Shown: positions 14,599 through 34,950 of the stretch, piece after piece | Layout: each line of letters starts with the position of its first letter | Position numbering within the stretch: position 1 is the first letter of the stretch | Origin: Candidatus Desulfatibia profunda | Lineage (GTDB): Bacteria > Desulfobacterota > Desulfobacteria > Desulfobacterales > UBA11574 | Length of the DNA stretch: 36,083 bases | Assembly: GCA_014382665.1 (NCBI GenBank) | Contig: JACNJH010000098.1 | Location: 1-36,083, forward strand | Direction of reading: 5' to 3' | Made by a program: the position numbers and the translations under genes | Notes under the pieces: model-generated | The model's database searches: none | The model's input: the letters and a program-made list of their open reading frames with translations, nothing else | What the model was told of the DNA's origin: nothing

Positions 14599-15882
14599 AT
14601 GGTAGAAACGTTAAAAATCAACCTGGGAAGAATGGGAATCACTGGCAACCAGGCAATTGCACGAGGAGCGATAGAAGCAGGGGTGCAAATTACATGTGCA
14701 TATCCAGGTGCGCCTATTTCAGACCTGCAAAATACATTTGAATCTTTAGCTAATAAACCAGGATTTCCGAGGAATAATCCATTCACCTTGAAACTCGGCG
14801 AGTCTCTGGACAAAGCCGGCTACGAGCTAGTTGCCAAGTGGGGTGAAATGACCAACGAGCCCAATGCACTATCTTTTGCTTTAGGCAGTTTAATGTGCAA
14901 GGGGGATAAAAAGCCTCGCGAATACATCACCCCCGAGGAATACGGCACTATCTTTGGGGATACACTTTTTGCAAAGAAAAATCTCTTGACCGCGGACGAG
15001 ATTCCGGTAGGGTTGAGAGTTATGTGCTCAGTCAAGCATCTTGGCGGCAGCACAATGGCTGACGTGGCCAGGACATTAATGAACATCATCCCCTACCCAG
15101 GTGGCCTTTGCATAGCAAGCGGAGATGACCGTCAGGGTGTTGCTTCCCAGACAATGCAGGACAACAAGGTATTGTTTGCTTGGCATTTTAGAATGCCTAC
15201 CTTTGAAGTTCATAATCCGGCCAATGCTCATGTAACAGTTAGAAACGCCTACAAGCTGTGCGAGGAGCTTGGCGTGGCCTTTGCAGTTATTGAGAATTAT
15301 AGTCAATCCTATCGAGAAGTTACCGCTGATGTGAATTTTGAAATAGATATGACGGCCAATAAGAGGAAGAAGGGATTCACTTCAGATCCATATAACCTCG
15401 TTACGATCGGACCTCACATAAGACCTAAAGAAAAGAGGCACTGGGAAAAAATAATCCCCCTTATGAAAAAGAAATTTTCCGAGAACTTTGAGTTCCTCAA
15501 TAACGAGGTTATTCGCTACTCCGAGGAACCAACGAAGATGATCATCGTTAATGGGCCTTTCAGAGAGGACCTAAACTATATAAGAAGCAATGAAGCAAAA
15601 GAAAGGGAATTCAAGCGAAGATATAAAGACCCGATAGTGATTGCCAGCGACCTAGTCTGGCCTTTACCTACCTTATTATACAAGCAAATCTTCGAGGAGA
15701 GTCGTATCGATGAAGTCTATGTCTTCGAAGAAGGCTATAGTAGATTGATGTACTTTGAGACGCTCGACTTCATAAATACCAATGGATTCAATGCCAGGGT
15801 GATAAACGCGGGCATTCCATATGAACCCAGAATGTATGAAAGATTCTCATACGCCAGCCATATAATGGCAAGCGCAAGCTAA
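14599..15882 (+). CDS. 2-oxoacid:ferredoxin oxidoreductase alpha subunit, IorA-like (split)
   Basis: The 427-residue product aligns by eye with the N-terminal half of indolepyruvate ferredoxin oxidoreductase IorA. It shows the GNQAIARGAIEAGVQITCAY and PGAPISDLQ opening of the pyrimidine (POR_N) domain, the NEPNALSFALG region with the cofactor-activating Glu, SVKHLGGSTMA (compare MKHVG), and a C-terminal transketolase-C-like domain (about 300-427). Unlike IorA it stops before the TPP domain, which is the next gene. AAAGGTGG supports the start. The gene is rich in AGA/AGG and ATA codons, unlike the mmd/por genes, suggesting acquisition. Substrate is unknown; aryl-2-oxoacids are a guess from IorA. 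Confidence 0.75.
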   Translation: MVETLKINLGRMGITGNQAIARGAIEAGVQITCAYPGAPISDLQNTFESLANKPGFPRNNPFTLKLGESLDKAGYELVAKWGEMTNEPNALSFALGSLMCKGDKKPREYITPEEYGTIFGDTLFAKKNLLTADEIPVGLRVMCSVKHLGGSTMADVARTLMNIIPYPGGLCIASGDDRQGVASQTMQDNKVLFAWHFRMPTFEVHNPANAHVTVRNAYKLCEELGVAFAVIENYSQSYREVTADVNFEIDMTANKRKKGFTSDPYNLVTIGPHIRPKEKRHWEKIIPLMKKKFSENFEFLNNEVIRYSEEPTKMIIVNGPFREDLNYIRSNEAKEREFKRRYKDPIVIASDLVWPLPTLLYKQIFEESRIDEVYVFEEGYSRLMYFETLDFINTNGFNARVINAGIPYEPRMYERFSYASHIMASAS

Positions 15883-15896
15883 CGAGGTGAAAAGGT

Positions 15897-16823
15897 ATGA
15901 CAGCAATGGCAATACCAAAACCTGAGGAGCGAACGATCAAAAGGCCGGTAGCAAACTGCGCCGGCTGCGGTGCGACCAAAGTATCGATGGCACTGAAAGA
16001 AGGTCTGAAGAGATATAACAAGCAAAATAAAACCAAATTCAAGTTGATCTACGTAGCTGATAGAGGCTGCGGCAATCTTCAGGGATGGCATGAATACGGC
16101 ATAGTCGATGCAATTTTCAACATGGGCATGGCGCCAATGGTGGCATTGGGCGCTAGATATTCGTCCGGAGGGGTGGAGAATGGCTACATAGTTGTTTGTG
16201 CAAGCGGTGATGGGGCCTATAACTTCAATATAAATGGGATGAAGATCGCAGCGCAAGACCTACCGAGCATGTATATAATTTACGACAACTATGCAATCCG
16301 CATGACCGGTGGACAGATAGGCTTGGTTAACGAGTATGCAGTAGAGGGCAAAGCCCTAGGCTTCGATACTTACTTTATCAATCCTTATCGATATGAGGAA
16401 AACGCAGAGGTCTTCAAAGATCTCATCGGTGAATATCTGAAGAAGAAGGCCATCATGGTCGTTGCCGACGGCACCTGCGCTCGAGACTTGAAAGGCCAAC
16501 TCAGAGCGCAAGGGGTGAAACTCGGGACATTCAGCAGGAAAGAAGATTGTAAAAACCTTGTCTATCTCAAGAAAAGAGAAGAAATCGCCAAAAAGAACCC
16601 TCAAAAGGCCAAAGAAATGCCGCCATTTAAGTGCAGGCTCTGCGCAATTATTTTGCGCTGTCAAGCTCTGGCTGAAAACGACCCAAGTCGCTGCTTCGGC
16701 TGCGGAACCTGTGCACACTTCGGATGTGAATATTTAACCTGTGCCGGACCAAATCTGGCAATGGTAACCGCGCACCCGAAGAAGTACATTGAAGTTTTAA
16801 CAGGTAGGCAGGGAGATCATTGA
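15897..16823 (+). CDS. 2-oxoacid:ferredoxin oxidoreductase beta (TPP) subunit with Cys-rich tail
   Basis: The 308-residue protein starts with NCAGCGATK (C21, C24, a proximal-cluster CxxC), has the TPP/Mg motif SGDGAYNFN near residue 105 and YDNYAIRMTGGQ near 130, and ends in a cysteine-rich tail of eight cysteines (CRLC, LRC, CFGCGTC, FGC, LTC; about 243-283). The tail resembles the C-terminal ferredoxin domain of IorA but is not two clean CxxCxxCxxxCP sets. In classical IorA the alpha and TPP parts are one chain; here they are separate genes 14 bp apart. It would catalyse oxidative decarboxylation of a 2-oxoacid and pass electrons to ferredoxin. Codon use is like that of the alpha gene. Confidence 0.75.
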   Translation: MTAMAIPKPEERTIKRPVANCAGCGATKVSMALKEGLKRYNKQNKTKFKLIYVADRGCGNLQGWHEYGIVDAIFNMGMAPMVALGARYSSGGVENGYIVVCASGDGAYNFNINGMKIAAQDLPSMYIIYDNYAIRMTGGQIGLVNEYAVEGKALGFDTYFINPYRYEENAEVFKDLIGEYLKKKAIMVVADGTCARDLKGQLRAQGVKLGTFSRKEDCKNLVYLKKREEIAKKNPQKAKEMPPFKCRLCAIILRCQALAENDPSRCFGCGTCAHFGCEYLTCAGPNLAMVTAHPKKYIEVLTGRQGDH

Positions 16824-16824
16824 A

Positions 16825-17505
16825 ATGAAACGAGATCTGGTAATCACCAACCCCTCACTGGGCGGTTCTGGATATCTGACCCTTGTAGGATCAATGGCAA
16901 ATGCAGCCATCAAGGCGGGATATTATTCAACAACATATCAATGCAGAGGCTTAGCTCAAGCAGAAGGACCCATGTGCCTCGATATCTGGATAAGCGAAAA
17001 AGAGATCTACGGCGCCGTGCCACAGGAGATCAACTACATGAATGGTTATGACATGACCGAAATATGGCGCATGTTTATAGAGGCGGGCAGTCAAGCGGAG
17101 AAAGTATATTCAAAAGACCTCACATTGATAATGGATTACAGAGTTATTGAGCCAATCGCGGTAACGACAAGCATGAAAGGACCCAGGTACTACTCCAGAG
17201 AGGAGTTGCTCGAAGTCCTTAAAAAATATAAAATCGCGGGTGATACGCTAAGGTTAATTGTGTATGACTTTTCGAAGTACAAACAATATGCTTCGGTCTT
17301 GAAAGGCCCATATTCCTTTGGCGTAATTGTGGCTGATCTGGAGAAGCGCAACGACATTGTCAAAATTCCGAGGAAAGAAGCAGAATCAGCGGTCCGTGAA
17401 GGCGCACCTCAAAGTGGAAAGATACCTCAGCTGAACGTTGAAGCCTTTCAGAGGGGATACAAAGATCGAAGCGAGGCAAATGAAGGCAAAGTGCTTATGA
17501 TTTGA
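16825..17505 (+). CDS. 2-oxoacid:ferredoxin oxidoreductase gamma subunit, IorB-like
   Basis: The 226-residue product resembles IorB/POR gamma: SLGGSGYLTLVGSMANAAIK takes the place of the family's GxGGQGxxxAxxxLAxAA loop, and RGLAQAEGPM that of GMAQRGG. It begins 1 bp after the beta stop with GGGAG upstream, so alpha, beta and gamma form one operon. The family's GGQG glutamine is Ser here. The last 50 residues are charged and not conserved in what I remember of IorB. The presence of all three domains supports a functional complex. Confidence 0.7.
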   Translation: MKRDLVITNPSLGGSGYLTLVGSMANAAIKAGYYSTTYQCRGLAQAEGPMCLDIWISEKEIYGAVPQEINYMNGYDMTEIWRMFIEAGSQAEKVYSKDLTLIMDYRVIEPIAVTTSMKGPRYYSREELLEVLKKYKIAGDTLRLIVYDFSKYKQYASVLKGPYSFGVIVADLEKRNDIVKIPRKEAESAVREGAPQSGKIPQLNVEAFQRGYKDRSEANEGKVLMI

Positions 17506-17616
17506 TATGTTAGACAGTAAACCGCGGCACGTAATTTCTTCAATCTCAAATACCAGATACCTTGCCAAAAAATCAAATATCTTAGCAGAACCCTTTTCCG
17601 AAAGATGAAAACTTAC

Positions 17617-17713
17617 GGGATTTCATAATCCCAAATTGGGACAGATATTTCTCATTAACAGTATTTTCAGCGAATAACCCCCTAGTTGCTTTTTTTTGGG
17701 ACATTTACGTCCC
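17617..17713 (+). promoter_or_regulatory. Upstream palindromes GGGAY-N6-RTCCC (putative activator sites)
   Basis: Two perfect palindromes with 5-bp arms and 6-bp spacers are present: GGGATTTCATAATCCC (17617-17632) and GGGACATTTACGTCCC (17698-17713). A degenerate third copy, GGGACAGATATTTCTC (17638-17653), begins exactly 21 bp after the first. The distal-to-proximal layout ends 105 bp upstream of the -24 GG of a sigma-54 promoter. The same motif and layout recur at 31836-31942 before porCAB, where the distance is 106 bp. They fit enhancer-binding-protein sites; the protein is not identified. Confidence 0.65.
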
Positions 17714-17801: not shown

Positions 17802-17816
17802 TGGCACAGCGCTTGC
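17802..17816 (+). promoter_or_regulatory. Sigma-54 promoter for the methylmalonyl-CoA operon
   Basis: CTGGCACAGCGCTTGC matches the -24/-12 consensus TGGCAC-N5-TTGC, with the GG (17803) and GC (17815) the required 12 bp apart. Transcription would start near 17828, giving a leader of about 420 nt before the mutase gene. No other gene on this strand lies between. Sigma-54 promoters need an AAA+ activator, consistent with the palindromes upstream. Confidence 0.7.
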
Positions 17817-18245: not shown

Positions 18246-20363
18246 ATGGCAGAGCATGCGCACAAACAGAAATGGATCGAGCTGGCCAGCAAGCAGCTCA
18301 AGGGCCAACCGCTTAAGGATCTTGAGTGGGAGACCCCTGAAGGCATCAGGGTAAAGCCGCTGTATTTGGCCGAGGATCTTGAAGGGATGGAACATCTCAA
18401 CACGCTGCCCGGGTTTCCCCCTTATGTGCGGGGGCCCATGGCCACCATGTACGCCGGGCGTCCCTGGACCGTGCGCCAGTACGCCGGTTTTTCCACGGCC
18501 AGGGAATCGAATGCGTTTTACCGCCGGAATTTGGCGGCCGGGCAGACCGGGCTGTCGGTGGCCTTTGATCTGGCGACCCACCGGGGGTATGATTCGGATC
18601 ATCCCCGGGTGGTGGGCGATATCGGCAAAGCCGGGGTGGCCGTAGATTCGGTCGAGGACATGAAGATTTTGTTCGACCAGATTCCCTTAGACAAGGTGAC
18701 GGTATCCATGACCATGAACGGCGCGGTGTTGCCGGTGATGGCCGGCTACATCGTGGCGGCCGAAGAGCAGGGCGTCGGCCAGCAGCAGTTGGGCGGCACC
18801 ATTCAGAACGACATTTTAAAGGAGTACCTGACCCGCAACACGTACATTTATCCGCCGGAGCCGTCCATGCGGATTGTTTCCGATATCATCGGGTACTGTT
18901 CGGAGCACATGCCCAAGTACAACACGGTGAGCATCAGCGGCTATCACATGATGGAGGCCGGGGCCGACTCGGTGCTGCAGACCGCCTTTACGCTGGCGGA
19001 CGGGCTCGATTATGTTCGCGCCGCCTTAAAGGCCGGGCTTGATATCGACACCTTTGCCCCGCGGTTGTCGTTTTTCTTTGGGGTGGGGATGAACTTTTTC
19101 ATGGAGATCGCCATGCTGCGGGCGGCGCGTTTTCTGTGGCATGAAATTGTCAGCCGCTTTGATCCCAAGGATTCGCGCTCGACGACGCTCAGGACTCATG
19201 TGCAGACCTCGGGCTGGAGCCTGACCGCGCAGGATCCGTATAACAACATCATCCGGACCACGATCGAGTGTCTGGCGGCGGCCCTGGGCGGCACCCAGTC
19301 GATGCACACCAATTCCTTTGACGAGGCCGTGGGCTTGCCCACGGACTTTTCGGCCCGGATTGCCCGCAACACCCAGTTGGTGGTGCAGCACGAGTCCCAG
19401 ATTTGCCGGGTGATCGACCCGCTGGCGGGCTCGTATTACGTCGAGGCTTTGACGGACGGCATCATCAAAGAATCCCGCAAGATCATGGCCGAGATTGAGA
19501 AGATGGGCGGGATGGCCAAGGCCATTGAGACCGGCATGCCCAAGATGCGCATCGAGGAAGCGGCCGCCCGCAAGCAGGCCCGCATCGATCAGGGTCTGGA
19601 CATCATTGTGGGCGTCAACAAGTATCAGATCGAGCAGGCGCCGCTGGAAGAGTATCTGGAAGTTTCCGAGGCGGTGCGCGCGGAGCAGATCGCCCGGCTC
19701 AAACAGATCCGGCAGAAGCGCGACGAGGCTGCCGTGTGCCAGGCGCTTGAGGCCGTCACCAAGGTTGCCGGGGGCGCCGGCAATCTTTTGGAGGTCTGTA
19801 TTGCGGCGGTGCGGGCGCGGGCCACCGTGGGCGAGATTTCCGACGCCATGGAAAAGGTGTTCAACCGCTATGTGGCCACGACCCAGTGCATCTCGGGGGC
19901 CTATGCCGCCGAGTACGGTGACAGTGAAATCTTTGCCGCCATCCGCAAGCGCACCGACGATTTTCTGGCCAAAGAGGGCCGCCGGCCGCGGATTCTGGTG
20001 ATCAAGATGGGCCAGGACGGTCACGACCGGGGCATCAAGGTGATTGCCACCGCCTTTGCGGACCTGGGGTTTGATGTGGATATCGGTCCCATGTTCCAGA
20101 CCCCGGAAGAAGCGGCCCAGATGGCGGTGGAGAACGATGTGCATGTGGTCGGGGTATCCAGCCTGGCGGCCGGACACCGCTCCCTGGTTCCCCAGCTGAT
20201 CACTGCGCTCAAAGCCAAGGGCGGCCAGGATATCCAGGTGGTGGTGGGCGGGGTCATTCCCCCGGCCGATTATGACAGCCTGCTCAGTGCCGGCGCCAAG
20301 GCCGTTTTCGGCCCCGGCACCGTGGTCACCGATGCGGCCAACAAAGTGCTGAATCTCCTTTAA
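18246..20363 (+). CDS. mutB: Methylmalonyl-CoA mutase (single-chain, catalytic plus B12 domain)
   Basis: This 705-residue adenosylcobalamin enzyme isomerises (R)-methylmalonyl-CoA and succinyl-CoA. The catalytic barrel (about 1-540) contains [28 protein letters not shown] (with the substrate-contacting Tyr), [15 protein letters not shown] and [16 protein letters not shown]. The C-terminal B12 domain (about 570-705) carries the base-off motif GQDGHDRG near residue 594, with [10 protein letters not shown] and VVVGGVIPP. The start has AAAGGAG. It heads the operon under the sigma-54 promoter. No MeaB-type chaperone or epimerase follows within the window. It is visibly GC-richer at third positions than the upstream genes, which creates long antisense shadow frames. 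Confidence 0.97.
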
Positions 20364-20415: not shown

Positions 20416-20703
20416 ATGGCTATTAAAGTATTCATTAAACGGGCAGTGCCGGAAAATACAGCGCAAGCGTTAAAGCCTCTCCTGAAAAAGCTGAGAAACC
20501 TGGCCATGGAGCAACCCGGCTACGTTTCCGGGGAAACATACAAAAGAATCGACCGCCCCGGTGAAAATCTGGCCATCAGCACCTGGCAGTCCATGGACGA
20601 TTGGAGGAAATGGGTGCTTAGCGAAGAAAGAGCCGAAATCCAGACAAAAATTGATTATTTGCTCGGGGAAAAAACCGAGTACGAAATCTATACGTTCGAT
20701 TAA
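20416..20703 (+). CDS. ABM-domain (antibiotic biosynthesis monooxygenase-like) small protein
   Basis: The 95-residue product has the ferredoxin-like ABM fold pattern: an opening strand IKVFIKRAVPE, a helix, GYVSGETYKR, an ISTWQSMDDWRKW stretch, and a final helix/strand. Members include quinol monooxygenases, haem-degrading enzymes and many small dimeric proteins of unknown role. No haem or metal ligand set is obvious. It starts 52 bp after the mutase with AAAGGGG upstream and sits between the mutase and the carboxyltransferase, so it is transcribed with them. Its job in propionate metabolism is unknown. Confidence 0.75.
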   Translation: MAIKVFIKRAVPENTAQALKPLLKKLRNLAMEQPGYVSGETYKRIDRPGENLAISTWQSMDDWRKWVLSEERAEIQTKIDYLLGEKTEYEIYTFD

Positions 20704-20920: not shown

Positions 20921-22474
20921 ATGGGTATTATTGAAGATAGGATAAAAGATCTAAAGAACCGCGAAGCCAAGGCTTTGGAGATGGGTGGTGAAAAAGCGGT
21001 TGCCAAGCAGCGTGAGAGCGGCAAGCTGACCGCCCGGGAGCGTTTGAATGTTTTGTTCGATCCGGAAACATTTCGAGAAGTCGACATGTTTGTCAGCCAC
21101 CGCTGTGTCAATTTCGACATGGAAAAGATCGACATTCCCTCCGACGGCGTCATCACGGGCCATGGCCAAGTGGACGGACGGCCGGTTTTTGCTTTTGCCC
21201 AGGATTTTACGGCCAGGGCCGGCACCCTGGGTGAAATGCATGCCAAGAAGATCTGTAAAATCATGGGCCTGGCCTTAAAGGCCGGGGTTCCGCTAGTCGG
21301 CCTGAACGACTCCGGGGGGGCCCGGATTCAGGAGGGTGTGGATGCCCTTTCGGGATACGGTCAGATCTTTTACCGCAATTCGCTGTCCAGCGGGGTCATC
21401 CCGCAGATTTCGGCGATCATGGGACCGACGGCCGGAGGCGCGGTCTATTCTCCGGCCATGACCGACTGGGTGTTTATGGTCAAAAACACCAGCTACATGT
21501 TCATTACCGGCCCGGACGTGATCAAGTCGGTCACCGGCGAAGAGATCTCTTTTGAGGACCTCGGCGGCGCCATGACCCACAACGAAAAAAGCGGTGTGGC
21601 CCAGTTTGCCTGTGAGAGTGATGAGGACGCTATCAATCAGATCAGAATACTCCTGTCATATCTGCCGTCCAACAACATGGAAGATCCGCCCATCGTTCCC
21701 ACCGGCGATGATCCCAGGCGGACGGATCCGGCACTTGATACCATCATTCCGGACAACCCCAACCAGGCCTATGACATGAAGGAAGTGATTCGCAGCATCG
21801 TGGATAACGGCGAGATGTTCGAGCCTCACCAGTACTATGCCCGCAATATTATCGTTTGTTTTGCCAGGCTCAACGGCAGAAGCATCGGCATCATCGCCAA
21901 TCAGCCCCAGGTTCTGGCCGGCTGTCTTGATATTGACGCTTCGGACAAGGCCACCCGCTTTATCCGCTTCTGCGACGCCTTTAACATTCCGATGTTGACC
22001 ATCGCGGACGTTCCCGGATATTTGCCCGGAAGCCAGCAGGAATGGAGCGGGATCATCCGGCACGGCGCCAAGCTCCTGTGGTGCTATTCGGAGGCGACGG
22101 TTCCCAAATTGCTGCTGGTAACGCGCAAGGACTACGGCGGGTCTTACCTGGCGATGTGCTCCAAGGATCTGGGCGCCGACATGGCCTTTGCCTGGCCCAG
22201 CGCCGAGATTGCGGTGATGGGCGCTGCGGGAGCCTGCAATATCATTCATCGCCGGGAAATCAAGGCGGCCGAGGATCCTGCCGCCAAGCGCAAGGAACTG
22301 GTCAAGGAATACGAGGATTTGTTTTCGAATCCATATTGCGCCGCCAGCCGGGGGTATATTGACGCCGTGATTGTGCCCAGCGAGACACGGCCGCGCCTGA
22401 TCGACGCCCTGGAGATCATGTGCAGCAAACGAGAGACGCTCCCACCGAAGAAGCACGGGAACATACCGCTATAA
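20921..22474 (+). CDS. mmdA: Acyl-CoA carboxyltransferase subunit (methylmalonyl-CoA transcarboxylase 12S-like)
   Basis: The 517-residue product is the biotin-dependent carboxyltransferase that moves CO2 between carboxybiotin and propionyl-CoA. It shows KLTARERLNVLFDPE near residue 37, the N-lobe oxyanion region NDSGGARIQEG near 128, GPTAGGAVYSPAMTD near 168, and a C-lobe with DVPGYLPG and GAAGACNIIHRRE. Length and motifs fit MmdA, PccB and the 12S transcarboxylase subunit. The neighbouring 5S-biotin fusion points to transcarboxylase use: propionyl-CoA plus oxaloacetate to methylmalonyl-CoA plus pyruvate. No biotin carboxylase and no membrane decarboxylase beta subunit are in the operon. Confidence 0.93.
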   Translation: MGIIEDRIKDLKNREAKALEMGGEKAVAKQRESGKLTARERLNVLFDPETFREVDMFVSHRCVNFDMEKIDIPSDGVITGHGQVDGRPVFAFAQDFTARAGTLGEMHAKKICKIMGLALKAGVPLVGLNDSGGARIQEGVDALSGYGQIFYRNSLSSGVIPQISAIMGPTAGGAVYSPAMTDWVFMVKNTSYMFITGPDVIKSVTGEEISFEDLGGAMTHNEKSGVAQFACESDEDAINQIRILLSYLPSNNMEDPPIVPTGDDPRRTDPALDTIIPDNPNQAYDMKEVIRSIVDNGEMFEPHQYYARNIIVCFARLNGRSIGIIANQPQVLAGCLDIDASDKATRFIRFCDAFNIPMLTIADVPGYLPGSQQEWSGIIRHGAKLLWCYSEATVPKLLLVTRKDYGGSYLAMCSKDLGADMAFAWPSAEIAVMGAAGACNIIHRREIKAAEDPAAKRKELVKEYEDLFSNPYCAASRGYIDAVIVPSETRPRLIDALEIMCSKRETLPPKKHGNIPL

Positions 22475-22854: not shown

Positions 22855-24843
22855 ATGAGCAAGCATGATCAAGTCAAAATGACCACCATGGACTACAGCC
22901 CGGACAGACCCAAGGCGAAAAATCCGCTGAAGGTGATGGACCTTTCCTTTCGCGACGGCCATCAATCCCTGTTTGCCACCAGGGGACGGACCGAAGACAT
23001 GATCCCGGTTGCCGAGATGATGGATGAGGTCGGTTTCTGGGCGCTCGAAACCTGGGGCGGTGCCACCTTTGATACCATGCACCGCTTCTTGAATGAAGAT
23101 CCATGGGAACGGATCCGGACTTTGAAACGCTATATCAAAAAAACACCGTTTTCCATGCTGCTGCGGGCCCAGAACCTGGTGGGATACCGCAATTATGCCG
23201 ACGATCTCGCCCGGGCCTTTGTGGAGCGGGCGGCGGCCAACGGTATGGATATCTTCAGGACCTTTGACGCCTTGAACGACTTCCGCAACTTTGAAACGGT
23301 TGTTGCCGTGATTAAAGCCTGCGGCAAACATTTTCAGGGGTGTATCTGTTATACCATGACCGAGCCCCGGCTGGGCGGAGACGTTTACGATATCGACTAC
23401 TTCGTCAGCAAGGCCAAGGACCTGGAGGCCATGGGCGCCGACAGTATCTGCGTCAAGGACATGGCAGGTCTGATTGCACCTTATGATGCCTATCAAGTCA
23501 TCAAGGCCCTAAAGGCCGCCGTGAAAGCACCCATTCACCTGCACAGCCATTTCACTTCCGGCATGTCTCCCATGAGCCATTTGAAGGCCATCGAGGCCGG
23601 CGTCGATATCATTGACACCTGCATGTCGCCCTATGCCTACCGGACATCCCACGCCGCCGTCGAACCGCTGGTGATGACGCTTCTGGGGACCAACCGGGAC
23701 ACCGGCTTCGATATCAGGCACCTGGCGAAGATAAACGAGATCCTTGAAAAGAAAGTGCTGCCCAAGTACAAGCATCTTCTGGATGATTCAAAAATGTCGA
23801 TCATCGATATTAGTGTTCTGCTGCATCAGACACCGGGAGGGATGCTCTCCAACCTGGTGAACCAGTTAAGGGAATTGGACGCCCTGCATAAGATCGACGA
23901 GGTTTACAAAGAACTCCCCAGAGTCAGAAAAGAACTCGGGCAGATCCCGCTGGTAACCCCCACCAGCCAGATCGTCGGAATCCAGACCGTCAACAATGTT
24001 CTCTTTGACGATCAATATGAACGCTATAAGATGATTACGGATCAGGTCAAAGATCTTTGCTACGGTTTATATGGTAAAACCGCCGTCCCCATAGATCCTG
24101 AAGTTCAAAAGAAAGCACTCAAAGGGTACAAACGGGGGGAAGAACCGATTACCTGTCGACCGGCCGAAGTGCTGGCACCCGAGCTTGAACAGGCCAAAAA
24201 AGATGTCGAGGGTCTGGGCGAAGACATCGACGACGTGATTACATATGCGCTTTATCCCATCACCGGCAAACGGTTTTTGAAGTGGAAATACGGTAAACAG
24301 GATCCGCCCCAGGAAGTTAAACCCAGGACCCTGGAAGAGATTAAAGCGGAAGAGGAGCGGGTAAAACTGGCCCGGCTGGGGCTGCTGGTTCCAAAGGTGG
24401 AAAAAGCGGCTCCTCCCAAAAGCCCGTTTGTTCGAACGTTTAATGTATTCGTTGATAATGAATACTTTGAAGTGGAAGTAGATGATATCGGCGGGATGCC
24501 GATGGCCGGCTATATGCCGCAAATACCGGCGGCCGCCCCCTCCAGAGTTGCACCGGCTGCCCGGCCTTCTGCGGCAGCACCCGCGGCGGCCCCGGCGGCC
24601 CCGGCAGCCCCGGCGGCTGAAAAGGTTGACGGCACCCCCCTGACCGCGCCGATGCCCGGTATGATCGTTCGCTATGCAAAACAGGTGGGAGATTCGGTTG
24701 CCAAAGGGGATACCGTCGTGGTACTGGAAGCCATGAAGATGGAAAACGCTCTTCCGGCCCCGGCCGGCGGCACGATCAAGAGTATTCATTTTAATAGCGG
24801 CGATTCGGTTTCCAAGGGTGCTGTACTGTGTATAATTGCATAA
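22855..24843 (+). CDS. pycB: Transcarboxylase 5S/biotin carrier fusion (PycB/OadA type)
   Basis: The 662-residue chain joins a carboxyltransferase TIM barrel (HMGL-like, about 22-300), a conserved PYC_OADA domain (about 310-500), an Ala/Pro linker (about 555-590) and a biotinyl domain. The metal and substrate motifs are SFRDGHQSL and HLHSHFTSGM (His pair), with the carbamylated-Lys region in VKDMAG. The biotin site is K628 in EAMKMENAL, 34 residues from the end. It transfers CO2 between oxaloacetate/pyruvate and biotin. Placed after a 12S-like carboxyltransferase and with no OadB-like membrane partner, it best fits a transcarboxylase half rather than a sodium pump or ATP-driven pyruvate carboxylase. 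Confidence 0.93.
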   Translation: MSKHDQVKMTTMDYSPDRPKAKNPLKVMDLSFRDGHQSLFATRGRTEDMIPVAEMMDEVGFWALETWGGATFDTMHRFLNEDPWERIRTLKRYIKKTPFSMLLRAQNLVGYRNYADDLARAFVERAAANGMDIFRTFDALNDFRNFETVVAVIKACGKHFQGCICYTMTEPRLGGDVYDIDYFVSKAKDLEAMGADSICVKDMAGLIAPYDAYQVIKALKAAVKAPIHLHSHFTSGMSPMSHLKAIEAGVDIIDTCMSPYAYRTSHAAVEPLVMTLLGTNRDTGFDIRHLAKINEILEKKVLPKYKHLLDDSKMSIIDISVLLHQTPGGMLSNLVNQLRELDALHKIDEVYKELPRVRKELGQIPLVTPTSQIVGIQTVNNVLFDDQYERYKMITDQVKDLCYGLYGKTAVPIDPEVQKKALKGYKRGEEPITCRPAEVLAPELEQAKKDVEGLGEDIDDVITYALYPITGKRFLKWKYGKQDPPQEVKPRTLEEIKAEEERVKLARLGLLVPKVEKAAPPKSPFVRTFNVFVDNEYFEVEVDDIGGMPMAGYMPQIPAAAPSRVAPAARPSAAAPAAAPAAPAAPAAEKVDGTPLTAPMPGMIVRYAKQVGDSVAKGDTVVVLEAMKMENALPAPAGGTIKSIHFNSGDSVSKGAVLCIIA

Positions 24844-24861: not shown

Positions 24862-26025
24862 ATGAAGATCCACGAATATCAGGCCAAGGATCTGTTCAAA
24901 AAATACAACATTCCCATTCCAGACGGCGGGGTGGCCTTAAATCCGGATGAAGCCGCAGGGATCGCCGCAAGGCTGGGCGCCTTCCCGGTAGTGGTCAAAG
25001 CTCAGATTCATGCCGGCGGTCGGGGCAAAGGCGGCGGGGTCAAACTGGCCAAATCAAAAGCTGAAGTTCAGCGCATGGCCGCGGACATCCTCGGGATGAA
25101 GCTGGTGACTCACCAGACCGGCCCGCAAGGGAAAACGGTCAATAAGGTTCTGGTTGAGCAGGGGCTCAATATCGCCAAGGAGCTATACTTAAGCATTATT
25201 CCGGACCGGGCCACGGCCAAGATCGTGGTGATGGCCAGCGAAGCCGGCGGAATGGATATCGAAGAAGTAGCGGCCGCAACTCCGGAAAAGATCATCAAGG
25301 TTTACATCAACCCGCTGACGGGGATCCAGCCCTATCACTGCCGGCAGGCCGCCTACGGTCTGAACCTGGCGCCGGCGGTAATCAAGCCGTTTACAGCCAT
25401 GCTGGCAAATTTATACCGGTTGCTGGTCGACTACGACTGCTCACTGGTGGAAATCAATCCGCTGGTAATTACCGCCGAGGAAGCGGTAATTGCCCTGGAT
25501 GCCAAGATCGATTTTGACGACAACAGCCTGTACCGTCACAAGGACATCCTCCAATTGCGCGATGTTGATGAGGAAGATCCCCTGGAGGTCGAGGCTTCCA
25601 AATTCAATCTCAACTATATCAATCTGGACGGAAACGTGGGAAACATGGTTAACGGTGCAGGTCTGGCCATGGCGACCATGGACATCATCAAGCTGGCCGG
25701 TGCCGAGCCGGCCAACTTCCTGGATGTGGGCGGCGGCGCCAGTGCCGAGATGGTTGAAAACGGCTTCCGGATTATCTTGAGTGATAAAAACGTCAAGGCG
25801 ATTTTGATCAATATTTTCGGCGGAATCCTGCGCTGCGACGTTCTGGCCGAAGGTGTGGTGCAGGCGGCCAAAACAACCGGCATCGACGTTCCCGTGGTGG
25901 TCCGGATGGAAGGGACCAATGTGGAGGAAGGCCGCCGGATACTGTCCGAGTCCGGTCTGAACCTGATTACGGCCGCCGATCTTAAGGCTGCGGCCCAAAA
26001 AATTGCAGAGTTGGTCAGCGGTTAG
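24862..26025 (+). CDS. sucC: Succinyl-CoA synthetase beta subunit
   Basis: The 387-residue product has the ATP-grasp domain (about 1-235: MKIHEYQAKDLFKKY, QIHAGGRGKGGGVKLAKS) and the C-terminal CoA-ligase domain (about 245-387: NGAGLAMATMD, FLDVGGGAS, INIFGGILRCDVLAEGV). With SucD it converts succinyl-CoA, ADP (or GDP) and phosphate to succinate, CoA and ATP (or GTP), the substrate-level phosphorylation step of propionate oxidation. It begins 18 bp after the biotin-carrier fusion with AGGAG upstream, so co-transcription is clear. The partner sucD is unusually far away, behind a repeat-filled 296-bp spacer. Confidence 0.97.
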   Translation: MKIHEYQAKDLFKKYNIPIPDGGVALNPDEAAGIAARLGAFPVVVKAQIHAGGRGKGGGVKLAKSKAEVQRMAADILGMKLVTHQTGPQGKTVNKVLVEQGLNIAKELYLSIIPDRATAKIVVMASEAGGMDIEEVAAATPEKIIKVYINPLTGIQPYHCRQAAYGLNLAPAVIKPFTAMLANLYRLLVDYDCSLVEINPLVITAEEAVIALDAKIDFDDNSLYRHKDILQLRDVDEEDPLEVEASKFNLNYINLDGNVGNMVNGAGLAMATMDIIKLAGAEPANFLDVGGGASAEMVENGFRIILSDKNVKAILINIFGGILRCDVLAEGVVQAAKTTGIDVPVVVRMEGTNVEEGRRILSESGLNLITAADLKAAAQKIAELVSG

Positions 26026-26321: not shown

Positions 26322-27194
26322 GTGAGTGTATTTGTTGACAAGCATACGCGTCTGGTGGTTCAGGGAATTACAGGCAAAGAAGGGCAGTTTCATACCCGCC
26401 AGTGTATGGCCTACGGCACCAAGGTAGTGGCCGGGGTTACACCGGGCAAAGGTGGCCAGAAGATGGACGATGTACCGGTATTCAATACCGTTCAAGCGGC
26501 GGTGAAGCAGGCCGGTGCAAACTGCAGCATGATTTTTGTACCGCCGGCCTTTGCCGCCGATGCCGTTATGGAGGCTGCCGACGCCGGGATCGAGTTGATT
26601 GTCGCCATCACCGAAGGTATCCCGGTGATGGACATGCTGAAAGTCAAGAATTACCTGGAGGGCAAATCATCCCGGCTGATCGGTCCCAATTGTCCGGGGA
26701 TCATCACGCCGGGTGAGTGCAAGGTGGGCATTATGCCGGGCCCGATCCACAAGCCCGGAGGCCCCATCGGAGTTGTTTCCCGATCCGGAACACTGACCTA
26801 CGAAGTCGTCCACCAGTTGACAATGCAAGGCATCGGCCAGACAACCTGTATCGGGATCGGCGGCGATCCGGTCAACGGCACCAATTTTATCGACTGCCTG
26901 GCGGCCTTTGAAAAGGATCCCGAGACCAAAGGAATCGTTCTGGTGGGTGAAATCGGCGGTATGGCCGAAGAGGACGCCGCTGAATTCATCGCTGCGCATG
27001 TCAGCAAGCCGGTGGTCGGATTTATAGCCGGTCTGACCGCGCCTCCGGGCCGACGCATGGGGCATGCCGGCGCCATTATCAGCGGCAAAAGCGGCACGGC
27101 CCAAGGAAAGATCGAGGCCATGAAGGCCGGCGGCATCCACGTTTGTGAAAATCTCGGCACCTTCGGGGAAATGTGTGCCGAAGTATTTAAGTAA
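26322..27194 (+). CDS. sucD: Succinyl-CoA synthetase alpha subunit
   Basis: The 290-residue product has the CoA-binding Rossmann domain ([29 protein letters not shown]) and the ligase domain with the phosphohistidine in [12 protein letters not shown] near residue 247. SRSGTLTYE and [12 protein letters not shown] are also conserved. Translation begins at GTG 26322, supported by GAGGA; no ATG fits as well. It pairs with SucC for succinyl-CoA/succinate interconversion. It is flanked on both sides by copies of the same palindromic repeat. Confidence 0.97.
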
Positions 27195-27467: not shown

Positions 27468-28397
27468 ATGGACAAAAAAGTGACCGTAATCGGGGCTGGA
27501 AATGTGGGCGCGACAGCCGCCCAGCGTCTGGCTGAAAAAGAGTTGTGTGATGTTGTCTTGATTGACATCATTGAAGGTGTTCCCCAGGGAAAGGCCCTTG
27601 ACCTTGCCGAGGCCGCGCCCATTGAAAAGCACGATGCCCGCCTTATCGGTGCCAACAATTATGATGTCTCCGAAGGATCCGATATTGTCATTATCACCGC
27701 GGGCATTCCGCGAAAACCCGGCATGAGCCGTGACGACCTTCTAAAAACCAATGCCAGCATAATGAAAGACGTTACGGGCAAGGTGGCCGAACGTTCTCCC
27801 AAAGCCGTCCTTATTATTGTGAGCAATCCTCTGGATGCCATGTGTCATGTTGCCTATGAAACCAGCGGCTTTCCGAAGAACCGAGTCCTCGGCATGGCGG
27901 GCGTCCTCGATTCGGCCCGCTTCAGAACTTTTATATCCATGGAGCTTGACGTTTCGGTTGAAAGTACCCATGCATTTGTTCTTGGCGGCCACGGCGATAC
28001 CATGGTGCCGCTGCCGCGCTACTCTACGGTAGCCGGCATACCGATTACCGAGTTGATGTCGCCAGAACGGATTGATGCCCTGGTAAAAAGGACGGCAACC
28101 GGCGGGGCCGAAATCGTCAGCTTGCTGAAAACCGGAAGCGCCTACTATGCACCGGCATCTGCGGCCGTGGAGATGGCCGAGTCGATTCTGAAAGATAAAA
28201 AGAAAATTCTTCCGTGCGCAGCCTATCTTGAGGGCGAATACGGCATCAACGATCTTTTTATCGGTGTTCCGGTTAAACTGGGCGCCAAAGGAATCGAGGA
28301 GATCATCCAGATCTCCCTTACGGACCAAGAGCAGGCCGCTCTAGAAAAGTCTGCCGCCGCGGTTCGGGAATTGGTTGAAGCTTTAAAAAAACTGTAA
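27468..28397 (+). CDS. mdh: Malate dehydrogenase (LDH-like family)
   Basis: The 309-residue protein oxidises malate to oxaloacetate with NAD. It has the dinucleotide loop [10 protein letters not shown] (residues 8-17) with an acidic residue in VLIDI. The loop [12 protein letters not shown] carries the Arg that selects malate over lactate, SNPLDAM follows, and the catalytic His is H175 in LGGHGD. It belongs to the LDH-like MDH branch found in many anaerobes. AAGGAGAAAGCT precedes ATG 27468. It regenerates the oxaloacetate consumed by the transcarboxylase. Fumarase, needed to supply malate, is not in the window. Confidence 0.95.
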
Positions 28398-28413: not shown

Positions 28414-29055
28414 ATGAACTGGCTTATCGATAATTTCCGGACTTCCATTGGCAAAAAACTGCTGATGGCCGTCACCGGGTTTTGCTTTTGCTGTTTTTTG
28501 AGCTTGCATCTAGCCGGCAATTTGACCATTTACGGCGGCAAAGATTTTTTTAACGCCTATGCCGGGCACCTGCATTCCTTGGGACCGCTCCTCACCGTCG
28601 CTGAATGGATCCTTTTGACTCTGGCTGTCATTCACGTGCTGACAGGCGCAACACTTTTTTATCAAAATTTCAGATCGCAACCGGTCGGATATTCGGTCAA
28701 AAAACGTGCCGGCGGCCGCAGTCTGGGTTCGGCCACCATGCCGTACACCGGTTTTATCATTCTGGCGTTTGTTATTTTTCACCTTTTAAATTTTCATTTT
28801 GCCGACAAGCGCAATACCACGATCTATCAAATCGTCTCCAGTGCCTTCGCCGATCCGGTATATGTAAGCATTTATTTTGCAGCCATGATCGTAGTAGCGG
28901 TTCACGTCAGCCACGGCTTCTGGAGTCTGTTTCAGACCATCGGTGCCAATCACCCCAAATACATGCCTCTGATTATGGGAACAGGCATTGCCTTCAGCCT
29001 GATTGTCGGAATCGGTTTTGGTTTTATCCCAATCTATTTTGTGCTGATGGCCTGA
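28414..29055 (+). CDS. sdhC: Succinate dehydrogenase/fumarate reductase cytochrome b subunit
   Basis: The 213-residue integral membrane protein has five hydrophobic segments (about 15-35, 62-83, 110-130, 150-175, 185-210) and histidines placed for two haems: H32, H74, H123 and H164. This is the single-subunit diheme (type B) anchor that links SdhA/B to menaquinone. The residue two before H164 is Ala (A162), whereas I recall Wolinella FrdC having the E-pathway Glu just before the equivalent His. That would fit a succinate-oxidising enzyme driven by membrane potential. AGAGG precedes the start, 16 bp after mdh. Confidence 0.9.
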   Translation: MNWLIDNFRTSIGKKLLMAVTGFCFCCFLSLHLAGNLTIYGGKDFFNAYAGHLHSLGPLLTVAEWILLTLAVIHVLTGATLFYQNFRSQPVGYSVKKRAGGRSLGSATMPYTGFIILAFVIFHLLNFHFADKRNTTIYQIVSSAFADPVYVSIYFAAMIVVAVHVSHGFWSLFQTIGANHPKYMPLIMGTGIAFSLIVGIGFGFIPIYFVLMA

Positions 29056-29144
29056 TCAGGAAAAGGCAAAAGCAAGAACACTATAGTGAAAATTGGCTGC
29101 TGAAAAAATACGAAATGCTGAACCAAGATATCTGGAGATAACTC

Positions 29145-31054
<1,910 letters not shown>

Positions 31055-31058
<4 letters not shown>

Positions 31059-31819
31059 CCAAAGCCATCAATTTAACTCTAAAAATCTGGCGTCAAAAAA
31101 ACTCGGATGTTAAGGGCGCCTTTGAAACCTATCATGCCGACAATATTTCCACCGACATGTCCTTTCTAGAGATGCTTGATGTGGTCAACGAACAATTGAC
31201 CTTGGACGGCAAAGATCCGATTTCCTTTGACCATGACTGCCGGGAAGGCATCTGCGGGATGTGCGGCACCGTGGTCAACGGTCGCGCCCACGGCTCCGAA
31301 AAAGGGACGACCCTGTGTCAGCTTCACATGCGGCATTTTTTAAACGGAGACACCATTGTGATTGAACCCTGGCGCTCGCGGGCATTTCCGGTCATCAAAG
31401 ATCTGGCGGTGAATCGTAGCGCTTTTGATAAAATCATTCAGGCCGGCGGGTACATTTCCGTCAACACCGGCGCGGCACCGGAAGCCAATACCATTCCCGT
31501 ACCCCAGGACATTGCCGAAAAAGCCATGGATGCCGCCGCCTGTATCGGCTGCGGGGCCTGTGTCGCCGCCTGCCCCAATGCGGCCGCCATGCTTTTTGTC
31601 GGCGCCAAGATCTCTCAACTGGCCCTGCTGCCCCAGGGGAAACCCGAAGGCGCCCGGCGGGCCTTGTCCATGGTCCGGAAAATGGACGCGCTGGGTTTCG
31701 GCAACTGCACCAACGAAAGAGAGTGTGAAGCCGAATGCCCCAAAGAAATATCGATCGCCAATATCGCCCGCATGAATCGTGAGTTTATAAAAGCCGGGTT
31801 TTTATCCGCTGAAAAATAA
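31055..31819 (+). CDS. sdhB: Succinate dehydrogenase/fumarate reductase iron-sulfur subunit
   Basis: The 254-residue protein carries three cluster sites: [2Fe-2S] at C62, C67, C70 and C88 ([10 protein letters not shown]...TLC), [4Fe-4S] starting CIGCGAC (C163, C166, C169, with C228), and [3Fe-4S] with C173, C218 and C224. It conducts electrons from SdhA to the haem subunit. It starts at GTG 31055, overlapping sdhA by GTGA, with GAGGAG upstream. It is the last gene of the propionate operon. No obvious intrinsic terminator follows, but the next 515 bp hold the por promoter. Confidence 0.96.
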
Positions 31820-31835: not shown

Positions 31836-31942
31836 GGGACATATTAATCCCAAATCAGGATACAGTTGTCCCAGAAGCGATATGTTTTGTATTTTCAAAA
31901 AGTAATTTTATTTTCGGACCGCATATGGGACTTTTTCGTCCC
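31836..31942 (+). promoter_or_regulatory. Upstream palindromes GGGAY-N6-RTCCC before porCAB
   Basis: Three copies of the motif are seen: GGGACATATTAATCCC (31836-31851, one arm mismatch), AGGATACAGTTGTCCC (31857-31872, exactly 21 bp later) and the perfect GGGACTTTTTCGTCCC (31927-31942). The last begins 106 bp upstream of the -24 GG. Motif, spacer length, 21-bp offset and distance repeat those before the mutase operon at 17617-17713. Confidence 0.65.
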
Positions 31943-32031
31943 CTTTTCCGGAGTCGCGGTTACATCACGTCAAGTTCACATGCGTGACAATGCTCCGTTA
32001 TTTCCGGCAGTTACATCTTTTTACTTTTTGT

Positions 32032-32046
32032 TGGCACGGTTACTGC
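32032..32046 (+). promoter_or_regulatory. Sigma-54 promoter for porCAB
   Basis: TTGGCACGGTTACTGC fits the -24/-12 consensus (TGGCACG-N4-TTGC with one change in the -12 box), with GG at 32033 and GC at 32045, 12 bp apart. The start would be near 32058, about 275 nt before porC. The leader between contains no gene I can support. Confidence 0.7.
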
Positions 32047-32334
32047 GTAACCTACAACCTGTAATTAAGGTCAGCTTTTTCAGGCTTAACCCCTAAAACT
32101 GCTTTTTTTGAAGAACAATAGCCAATAGGGAAGTCTCTTGCAGCTTGAAATTTCTTGACAATCTAAAATAATCTTTTATTGTAAAGAAAGGTTTTTTATT
32201 AATTCCGATGCATTTTCTAAAAAACAGGCCGTTTATAGCACTACGGCTGCCCGGCGGCATTCATTTAAAAAGCAAGTTAAGTCTACAACAACTCTTAACA
32301 CATCCAAACAACATGTTATCCGAAGGTGAAACCT

Positions 32335-32889
32335 ATGATTGAAATCAGAATTCATGGTCGCGGAGGCCAGGGAAATGTTGTCGCCGCTGAACTGCTTTCC
32401 ATTGCCGCGTTCAAGAGTGGAAAATATGCTCAGGCCTTTCCTTCGTTCGGAGCCGAACGGATCGGCGCCCCTGTCATGGCTTTCGTGAGAATCGATGACA
32501 AAAAAATTCGTACACGCGAGGAGGTGCTGAATCCGGGCTACTTGATTGTCCAGGATTATCACCTGATGGACACGGTCCCGGTGCTCGACGGGTTAAAACC
32601 GGACGGCCTCATCCTGATAAATGCAGAAAAATCCCCGGAGGAATTGCAGCTCAAGACATCCGCCACCGTCGTAACCATCCCGGCTACGGAGATTGCCCTT
32701 GAAATCATCGGCAGGCCCATCCCCAATGCGATCATGATCGGGGCTTTTTGTGCGATTACCGGTCTGGTGGGCCTGGATGCGGTACAGGATGCCATTATGG
32801 ATAAATTTCCTGGCAAAGTTGGTGAAAATAATATCGCGGCTTTAGAAAGGGCCGTTGAAATCATGCAAAAGAGGGAGATCCATGCTTAA
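32335..32889 (+). CDS. porC: Pyruvate:ferredoxin oxidoreductase gamma subunit
   Basis: The product (184 residues) begins IEIRIHGRGGQGNVVAAELL, the RGGQG loop of the POR gamma domain, followed by KYAQAFPSFGAERIGAPVMA, a signature of the pyruvate/2-oxovalerate gamma chains. I placed the start at ATG 32335 with AAGGTG 8 nt upstream; an in-frame GTG at 32326 is less likely. It overlaps porA by 8 bp. The subunit order gamma-alpha-beta, with no separate delta ferredoxin gene between, is notable. Confidence 0.93.
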   Translation: MIEIRIHGRGGQGNVVAAELLSIAAFKSGKYAQAFPSFGAERIGAPVMAFVRIDDKKIRTREEVLNPGYLIVQDYHLMDTVPVLDGLKPDGLILINAEKSPEELQLKTSATVVTIPATEIALEIIGRPIPNAIMIGAFCAITGLVGLDAVQDAIMDKFPGKVGENNIAALERAVEIMQKREIHA

Positions 32890-34057
32890 ACAAATTGAAG
32901 GATCGCATGCTGTAGCGGATGTGGTGGCCAAGTGCCGCCCCAATGTCATCTCCGCCTATCCGATTACACCGCAAACTCATATTGTGGAAGAACTGGCCGT
33001 GATTGTCGGCCAGGGAAAACTGGATGCCGAATTTGTGAATGTGGAAAGTGAATTTTCCGCTGCATCCGTTGTTCTGGGAGCAAGCGCCGCCGGCGCCCGA
33101 ACCTATACGGCGACCTCCTCGCAAGGGTTGCTGCTCATGAGCGAAGTGGTCTACTGTATTGCCGGAATGCGGTTGCCGATTGTAATGACCTGTGCCAACC
33201 GCGCCATCTCCGCGCCGTTGAGTATCTGGAACGATCAGCAGGACTCCATGGCCTTAAGGGATGCGGGCTGGATTCAGCTCCATGCCGAAGACAATCAGGA
33301 AGCTGCGGATCTGCACATCCAGGCCTATAAGATTGCGGAGCAAACCTATTTGCCCGTAATGGTCTGCATGGACGGTTTTATCCTGACCCATGCCTTCGAG
33401 CCGGTTGATATTCCCGACCAAAAGAGTGTCGATAATTTTCTGCCGCCGTTTCAGCCCAAAAATATTGTCGATCCCCGCTGGCCGAGAGGTATCGGTCTTT
33501 TTGCGGATCCGCGCTTTTATCACGAAACCCGTTACATCCTGCACCGGGCCCTGGAAAAATCCGAAGCTGCCATCAAGGCCGTCAGCGCGGATTTTGCCAA
33601 AACATTCGGACGGGACAACGGCGGTTTTATCAAGACCTACAAGCTGAAAGATGCCGACACGGTCATCGTCTCCATGGGGTCCATCGTCGGTACGATCAAG
33701 GATCTCATCGACCAGCTTGAAGAAAAAGGCAAGAAGGTCGGCTTGCTGCAAATCTGCTCCTACCGTCCGTTCCCGCGCACCGAAATATACAACGCGCTCA
33801 AAGACAAAATGAACATCGTGGTACTCGAAAAATCGATTTCACTGGGAAGAGGCGGCATTCTGGCCAGCGATGTGCGCTGGTCTTTTCCGCGCGCCGAGAA
33901 AAAAGACCGCAACATCAGCAGCTTTATTGCCGGCCTGGGCGGCCGCAATATCACCAAGGCCGATTTGCAATACATGGTCGAAAAGGTCGAAAAAGAACCG
34001 GTGGAGTTGGAATTTTTGGGGCTTAAAAAGGAACTTATAGCGGAGAAAGATTTATAA
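32882..34057 (+). CDS. porA: Pyruvate:ferredoxin oxidoreductase alpha subunit
   Basis: The 391-residue chain contains the pyrimidine-binding domain with VISAYPITPQTHIVEEL near residue 20, EFVNVESEFSAASVVLGA (cofactor-activating Glu), ATSSQGLLLM, and the POR signature SAPLSIWNDQQDSMALRDAG. A transketolase-C-like domain follows at about 250-370. I chose ATG 32882, preceded by GAGGGAG, over the longer frame from 32855. Together with porB and porC it oxidises pyruvate and CoA to acetyl-CoA, CO2 and reduced ferredoxin, removing the pyruvate released by the transcarboxylase. Confidence 0.94.
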   Translation: MLKQIEGSHAVADVVAKCRPNVISAYPITPQTHIVEELAVIVGQGKLDAEFVNVESEFSAASVVLGASAAGARTYTATSSQGLLLMSEVVYCIAGMRLPIVMTCANRAISAPLSIWNDQQDSMALRDAGWIQLHAEDNQEAADLHIQAYKIAEQTYLPVMVCMDGFILTHAFEPVDIPDQKSVDNFLPPFQPKNIVDPRWPRGIGLFADPRFYHETRYILHRALEKSEAAIKAVSADFAKTFGRDNGGFIKTYKLKDADTVIVSMGSIVGTIKDLIDQLEEKGKKVGLLQICSYRPFPRTEIYNALKDKMNIVVLEKSISLGRGGILASDVRWSFPRAEKKDRNISSFIAGLGGRNITKADLQYMVEKVEKEPVELEFLGLKKELIAEKDL

Positions 34058-34059
34058 TC

Positions 34060-34950
34060 ATGAAACCAATAGCCGAAGAACTCGATAAAATCGAAAAAAA
34101 AGACCTGTTTGGCAGCGGGCATCGGGCCTGCGGCGGCTGCGGCCAGGCCCTGGCCGCCCGTCTGGTAGCAGATGCTGCCGGAGAAAATACGATTGCCTGC
34201 GTTGCCACCGGCTGCCTGGAAGTGTTCAGCTCACCCTATCCGGATCCGGCCTGGCGCATTCCTTTTTTACACAGCCTTTTTGAAAACGCCTCGGCCGTTG
34301 CTTCCGGCGTGGAAGCTGCTTATAAGGCGCTCAAAAAAGGGCCGGTCAACATCATCGCCCAGGGCGGCGACGGCAGTACCGCCGATATCGGTTTTCAGAG
34401 CATCAGCGGTATGTTTGAGCGCGGGCACAATGTCCTTTATGTCTGCTACGATAATGAAGCCTATATGAATACCGGTGTTCAACGTTCAAGCTTTACCCCT
34501 CTGGGTGCCAGGACGTCCACAACACCCATGGGAAATAGAACCCGCAAGAAAAACATGCCGTTGATTGCCGCTGATCATGGTATTCCCTATGTGGCCACCG
34601 CCACGGTCGATGATTTCAGAGACTTGCAGCGCAAGGTAAAATTCGCCCTTTCCATCGAGGGGCCCAAATACATTCATGTCCTGGCTCCCTGCCCGCTGGG
34701 CTGGGGCCATCACGGAGAGCTTACCGTGCAGGTCTGCCGGCTGGCCAAAGATACGGGCCTGTTTCCGATATATGAAGTCATTAACGGCAAGATATCCAAT
34801 GTCCGCAAAATTCCGGTCAAAGTTCCGGTGCAAGAGTACCTGAAAGTGCAGGGTCGCTTCAGTCATCTGTTTAAAAAAGGTGCGCCGCCGGAAATCATCG
34901 CCGAAATTCAAGCAATCGCCAACCATACTATAGAGAGGTTTAATTTATAA
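34060..34950 (+). CDS. porB: Pyruvate:ferredoxin oxidoreductase beta subunit
   Basis: The 296-residue protein is the TPP-binding subunit. It has a proximal [4Fe-4S] site in HRACGGCGQA (C24, C27), C52 in ATGCLEV, and a late Cys in APCPLGWGHHGE. The TPP/Mg loop is QGGDGSTADIGFQ near residue 108, with CYDNEAYMNTGVQRS near 130. The ARTSTTPMG and KNMPLIAADHGIPYVATA strings are typical of pyruvate enzymes rather than 2-oxoglutarate ones. It starts 2 bp after porA with GGAGA upstream, and its stop overlaps the start of the next gene (TAATG). Confidence 0.94.
   Translation: MKPIAEELDKIEKKDLFGSGHRACGGCGQALAARLVADAAGENTIACVATGCLEVFSSPYPDPAWRIPFLHSLFENASAVASGVEAAYKALKKGPVNIIAQGGDGSTADIGFQSISGMFERGHNVLYVCYDNEAYMNTGVQRSSFTPLGARTSTTPMGNRTRKKNMPLIAADHGIPYVATATVDDFRDLQRKVKFALSIEGPKYIHVLAPCPLGWGHHGELTVQVCRLAKDTGLFPIYEVINGKISNVRKIPVKVPVQEYLKVQGRFSHLFKKGAPPEIIAEIQAIANHTIERFNL

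Follow-up and report, generated by a model that had tools for sequence, protein, structure and literature searches.

PrpR (TIGR02329), the sigma-54 activator of propionate catabolism, is linked to the methylcitrate cycle. In Desulfovibrio vulgaris, the lactate/por operon is controlled by the sigma-54 activator LurR (DVU3023), which is encoded beside its operon, with three 16-bp sites and a -24/-12 element upstream of por (PMC6456213, PMC3333781). The sigma-54 regulome of the same species follows the same logic, with an activator beside its operon, a palindrome upstream of a -24/-12 element and pyruvate genes among the targets; these targets are pyruvate formate-lyases with other sites, and no GGGAC/GTCCC string occurs in the text of that report (PMC4641369). 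In the propionate oxidizer Syntrophobacter fumaroxidans, a sigma-54 regulator, Sfum_3934, lies beside a propionyl-CoA:acetate CoA-transferase cluster, and the excerpted account describes no site or regulon for it (PMC3570798). A literature search with the exact motif of our locus gave no useful match, and a limited search of the open-access literature found no regulon described for propionate oxidation in this group. The module described below is of a known kind, and its regulon is apparently undescribed.

The window analyzed here, 36,083 nucleotides in length, is one whole contig (G000:C98) of a metagenome-assembled genome (MAG) of Candidatus Desulfatibia profunda (3.85 Mb, 98% complete, 293 contigs), and its genes were identified with Pfam and NCBIfam. 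From the methylmalonyl-CoA mutase gene onward, all genes run in the same direction, in the order mutase, ABM-domain protein, carboxyltransferase, oxaloacetate decarboxylase type, sucC, sucD, mdh, sdhCAB, a second regulatory array and porCAB (Table 1). At positions 32875-32889, the porC stop codon TAG of relatives is GAG, leaving porC four codons longer and overlapping the porA start. The genome encodes sigma-54 itself (rpoN; PF04552, E 1.5e-61; full gene on contig C61), which supports the predicted sigma-54 dependence of these operons. Besides the full rpoN, G000:C85:5915-6322 gave a shorter match to the DNA-binding domain of sigma-54, and a multi-PAS sigma-54 activator at G000:C213:17503-21006 is in two frames, apparently frameshifted.

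Table 1. Positions of the regulatory elements and genes of the mutase and por regions within the window
Feature	Position	Strand	Remark
Activator gene remnant, RTLFRKMKTYGIS and stop	17587..17628	+	13 codons + stop = last 14; tblastn/blastn against G278 activator
Mutase array site 1	17617..17632	.	2 mismatches; overlaps stop codon of activator remnant
Mutase array site 2	17638..17653	.	2 mismatches; 21 bp from site 1
Mutase array site 3	17698..17713	.	perfect
Mutase operon sigma-54 -24/-12 element, TGGCACAGCGCTTGC	17802..17816	+	perfect match to TGGCAC-N5-TTGC
Methylmalonyl-CoA mutase	18246..20363	+	
ABM-domain small protein	20416..20703	+	first gene after array in G278 and G202
Carboxyltransferase (acyl-CoA carboxylase/decarboxylase alpha type)	20921..22474	+	G202 counterpart mmdA-like
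Oxaloacetate decarboxylase / pyruvate carboxylase B type, biotinyl	22855..24843	+	
sucC	24862..26025	+	
sucD	26322..27194	+	
Malate dehydrogenase	27468..28397	+	
sdhCAB-type succinate dehydrogenase/fumarate reductase	28414..31819	+	three genes
por array site 1 (distal), GGGACATATTAATCCC	31836..31851	.	1 of 10 specified bases off; -197 from -24 T
por array site 2, AGGATACAGTTGTCCC	31857..31872	.	2 mismatches; 21 bp from site 1
por array site 3, GGGACTTTTTCGTCCC	31927..31942	.	perfect GGGAC-N6-GTCCC
por sigma-54 -24/-12 element, TGGCACGGTTACTGC	32032..32046	+	CTGC for TTGC; kept in G278 as TTGGCACAGCTATTGCG
Candidate second por promoter, sigma-70 type, TTGACA-16-TATTGT	32155..32182	+	TTGACA kept in G278 by eye
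porC	32335..32889	+	ATG 32335 likelier start; GTG 32326 in ORF list
porA	32882..34057	+	ATG 32882 likelier than TTG 32855
porB	34060..34950	+	

Both arrays, which lie 14 kb apart, are built from the same site type, a 16-bp palindrome of the form GGGAC-N6-GTCCC, and in both, three such sites precede a -24/-12 element. The first-pass annotation had claimed three copies and a second sigma-54 element before porCAB, as a duplicate of the module before the mutase gene, with offsets too well matched to be expected by chance, and each of these claims was borne out. The perfect site begins 106 bp before the GG of the -24 box at por and 105 bp before it at the mutase operon, and the two copies differ in the distance from the middle to the proximal site (70 bp at por versus 60 bp at the mutase operon). 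A perfect site 100 to 110 bp before a perfect -24/-12 element was observed twice in the window, and so were three sites upstream of one -24/-12 element, while neither arrangement appeared in 1,000 Markov-1 shuffles of the window. Single degenerate copies carry no weight as evidence, as palindromes with two or fewer mismatches are no commoner in the window than expected by chance (13 versus 15.8). The whole MAG contains only four perfect palindromes, i.e., those at por and the mutase operon, one within a fabF-like gene and one other. A relaxed composite pattern found no further targets in this genome; this pattern requires a terminal A that is absent from the genome's own two proximal sites, and it is thus blind even to these. 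Between array and promoter, only scattered near-matches to integration host factor (IHF) sites were found.

Across the order, 21 arrays from 17 genomes were aligned. With a single exception, the arrays outside the window are found directly 3' of genes that belong to one family of PAS-AAA+-Fis sigma-54 activators. The module is laid out with its sites at approximately -197/-176/-106 from the -24 box: sites 1 and 2 are 21 bp apart in 20 of the 21 arrays (the search for site 1 was confined to 20 to 22 bp, and an open scan gives the same spacing), sites 2 and 3 are 67 to 71 bp apart in 18, and site 3 stands 100 to 114 bp before the T of the -24 box, whose GG, like the GC of the -12 box, is invariant in all 21. 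The proximal site has a mean of 2.4 mismatches of 12, compared to 6.5 in shuffled sequences (lowest of 500, 5.8). Most columns of the palindrome arms hold about 1 to 2 bits and the spacer a mean of 0.29 bit, so the motif is conserved above its spacer background, as the first reading of the locus had led us to look for. With 5-base arms and a 6-base center, the half-site centers are about one helical turn apart, a distance that would fit a dimer with Fis-type helix-turn-helix (HTH) domains. Site 1 overlaps the last codons of the activator gene in relatives, and conservation there could therefore be coding; at por in this genome, however, site 1 is noncoding and yet the better match, with one mismatch, which favors a real third site.

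Orthologues of the activator were collected with a query covering the AAA+ and HTH portion of the protein from G016 (below 1e-120). They were found in approximately 20 genomes of the order, including four (G278, G202, G284, and G255) from the window's own family. Under strict criteria, the array was present in 11 of 20 activator neighborhoods, compared to 1 of 60 shuffled versions; under looser criteria it was also present at the first copy in G202 and in G255, with weaker cases in G008, G069, and G181. No array was found at the loci of the present genome's own PF00158 matches (0/30). The linked activators of G278, G202, G016, and G274 combine PF00158 (Sigma54_activat) with HTH_8, and the GAFTGA loop was read in their sequences; those of G278 and G016 carry PAS domains and no receiver. 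The linkage of the array to this one activator family is a direct observation, as are its geometry and conservation, and we propose that the cognate activator is a member of the family. The activator copies of G284, G202, and G255 stand with GGGGC/T-N6-GCCCC-type sites and TGGCAT promoters, and their HTH reads RKTLFRK versus RRTLFRK in most others; a change of specificity is possible.

In comparison with the described regulators, the linked activator scored 257 bits against the PrpR model, for which the cut-off is 499.2, and is not assigned to PrpR on this score; it has a PAS input and stands with the methylmalonyl-CoA pathway, por, and PrpE-like genes. An assignment to PrdR was likewise not supported (338.6 bits versus a cut-off of 795). 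LurR is a two-component response regulator for lactate use, unlike the PAS-type activators of G278 and G016, and its sites lie at approximately -253/-214/-114 from its promoter, as we computed from the values -389, -350, -250, and -136 in PMC6456213, versus -197/-176/-106 here; in this comparison of spacing and domains, the two are set apart.

The motif was also searched for independently of the activator. A composite of a perfect palindrome, 75 to 105 bp and a -24/-12 element gave five matches in four of 291 genomes of the order (two in this genome and one each in G016, G274, and G127, the last GC-rich), and the reversed pattern gave none. The G274 and G016 matches lie directly 3' of PAS-type sigma-54 activator genes and precede a gene for either an acetate uptake transporter or a sodium:solute symporter, with the gene of a propionate/acetate-CoA ligase coming next; the best-scoring models for this ligase are those of PrpE (776 and 757 bits), whose cut-offs it does not reach, so that its substrate is putative. 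At 1e-100, no PrpE-like ligase was found in this genome and six family relatives. A relaxed, gene-blind census of the motif gave 9 matches in the 291 genomes versus 1 in the control, and 6 of these were situated no more than about 100 bp downstream of activator genes that the protein search had found independently.

In a scan of 84,980 species, the palindrome also appeared at a similar distance from a -24/-12 element before other genes in unrelated bacteria, chiefly Verrucomicrobia, and the sequence of the site alone therefore cannot identify one activator. In many Verrucomicrobia and in Zobellella, the latter with two sites 33 bp apart, GGGAC-N6-GTCCC lies about 118 bp before TGGCAC-N5-TTGC and in front of unrelated genes; in two Desulfobacteraceae MAGs, the composite stands about 50 bp before an lpxC-like gene. 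These cases, mostly with no activator gene within the 8-kb loci, rule out the palindrome as a signature unique to one activator, and the composites of Verrucomicrobia and Zobellella probably belong to other activators with similar sites.

The genes behind the arrays share a theme, namely how propionate, pyruvate, and 2-oxoacids are taken up, activated, and oxidized. Some targets serve to take up and activate propionate/acetate, some encode 2-oxoacid oxidoreductases, and others make up the pathway from carboxyltransferase to por. In G202, a single cluster holds the activator gene, the array, and the ABM-domain, carboxyltransferase, oxaloacetate decarboxylase (oadA) type, sucC, sucD, mdh, and porCAB genes. 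In G278, an array lies between the activator gene and ABM-carboxyltransferase and another between mdh and porC, the latter with sites at -195, -175, and -106. Compared to G278, the window keeps both array places, with the mutase gene inserted between the first array and the ABM gene and with sdhCAB now separating mdh from the second array. The place of this second array beside por has thus been kept although its upstream neighbors are different. Both G202 and G284 have a second activator copy with an array before a 2-oxoacid oxidoreductase operon.

Most close relatives lack the module at both operons, an outcome that the first-pass annotation had named as speaking against its proposal. Among 19 relatives with por orthologues of at least 78% identity, 18 had enough upstream sequence and only G278 had the array (1/18); of 13 relatives with a full-length mutase, 11 could be tested and none had it (0/11). 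This scarcity fits the absence of the activator from those genomes as well, since among the family genomes sampled an activator orthologue was reported only in G278, G202, G284, and G255, and the array lies behind the activator gene in all four. The link to the mutase gene is peculiar to this genome, and the array at the same position in G278 and G202 would drive ABM-carboxyltransferase instead. Joint mutase and por regulation as such is therefore predicted for this genome in particular, while in relatives it is the carboxyltransferase pathway that appears to be regulated together with por, in G278 and, by clustering, in G202.

Directly before the mutase array lies the tail of an activator gene (Table 1), which differs by one substitution from the C-terminus of the G278 activator (RTLFRKMKSYGIS followed by the stop). 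In a blastn comparison with G278, 138 bp spanning the tail and the array aligned at 76% (E 9e-24), and of the five nucleotides that differ within the tail, four are synonymous changes, so that selection probably acted on the gene until recently. The assembly yielded neither a further fragment of this gene nor an orthologue; the best of the genome's own activators are approximately 40 to 50% identical in the AAA+ and C-terminal part only, and none of its roughly 27 sigma-54 activators is orthologous. Against the HTH of the G278 activator, their HTHs score 98 at most, versus 127 to 175 for orthologues from relatives. Upstream, the remnant adjoins an operon of three genes (14599-17505) resembling an indolepyruvate-type 2-oxoacid oxidoreductase (IOR-like; alpha split in two, beta), the third of which has homologues of 45 to 47% in eight relatives; in G202 and G284, this operon lies behind the array of another activator, and its first gene is 56% identical to the G284 gene in that position. 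The earlier claim that one activator co-regulates the two operons is supported for the co-regulation and for an AAA+ gene family that co-occurs with the motif, but the activator gene itself survives in this assembly only as its 3' end.

The body of the gene may have been lost, the contig may be misjoined here, or the gene may lie elsewhere in an unassembled stretch. That it is intact in the organism, because the contig carries a false join or an internal deletion immediately before 17587 or because assembly missed the gene, falls somewhat short of an even chance in our estimate: the MAG is split into 293 contigs, the remnant is in frame with the pattern of differences expected of a gene selected until very recently, and the gene occupies exactly this place in G278 and G202, but the assembly contains no second fragment of it, and in the 80 bp preceding 17587 the gene may continue in decayed form, which would not be a clean join. 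Alternatively, the array is real and is now bound by another of the genome's own sigma-54 activators, the cognate gene having been lost except for its tail. We regard such a replacement as rather unlikely; the low HTH scores and the lack of an array at the locus of any own activator speak against it, while a 14-codon remnant with no orthologue in the assembly, two perfect sites without decay, and a few own HTHs whose recognition helices show partial similarity (20/43 and 18/41 identities at best) would fit it.

Other readings concern the DNA elements themselves. The por leader contains a sigma-70-like promoter approximately 110 bp downstream of the -24/-12 element, with its TTGACA at the same place in G278, and it may add constitutive expression. 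That por is expressed mainly from this promoter, the sigma-54 element being a relic, seems improbable to us, as sigma-70 matches in the leader are not above background (2 versus 1.3 in shuffles) and the -24/-12 element and the perfect palindrome are intact, with the same geometry in G278. Since the palindromes are inverted repeats just after stop codons, they might also fold into RNA hairpins and serve sdhB and the activator gene as intrinsic terminators; we consider this very improbable, given that the single terminator called lies at 32246 and none was called at the palindromes, that site 3 has no long T-run after it in most arrays, and that this reading leaves unexplained why three copies keep a fixed helical spacing and are tied to a -24/-12 element.

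Altogether, the results make it likely that the palindromes bind dimers of a PAS-AAA+-Fis sigma-54 activator which opens the promoter at 32032-32046, and the promoter of the mutase operon likewise, a reading based on comparison of sequences. From the same comparison we infer binding, promoter activity, activation, the signal, and the growth condition. The activator, a bacterial enhancer-binding protein, would dock on the array at approximately -197/-176/-106; its PAS domains would receive a signal, probably related to propionate or 2-oxoacids, upon which it would oligomerize. Looping of the DNA over about 105 bp would bring it into contact with the sigma-54 polymerase, and ATP hydrolysis together with the GAFTGA loop would open the promoter. 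With the same array starting the mutase-carboxyltransferase operon, both segments of the route from propionyl-CoA via pyruvate to acetyl-CoA would rise together, and co-regulation of the propionyl-CoA/oxaloacetate pathway with por appears well supported by the sequence data. In this genome, the activator may act from an unassembled copy, may have been lost recently, or may have been replaced.

A bolder scenario, which we hold tentatively and think more doubtful than not, is that one PAS-type activator family governs the catabolism of C3 acids (propionate, pyruvate, and 2-oxoacids) across the order and that the array spreads as a promoter cassette from the 3' end of the activator gene. A copy of the cassette would have reached por in an ancestor shared by two genera, and the cassette would have captured the mutase gene here; the activator gene would have been cut to a 14-codon stub, and both arrays, now orphans, would be served from another place. 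If the assembly is right, the locus shows clearly how a promoter module can outlast the activator gene beside it.

In anaerobic carbon turnover, propionate oxidation is widely regarded as a bottleneck. If the proposed regulation is right, it names the control switch of an anaerobic pathway from propionate to acetyl-CoA in uncultured bacteria, and the rule of three sites at -197/-176/-106 beside one activator family would find its targets in other genomes.
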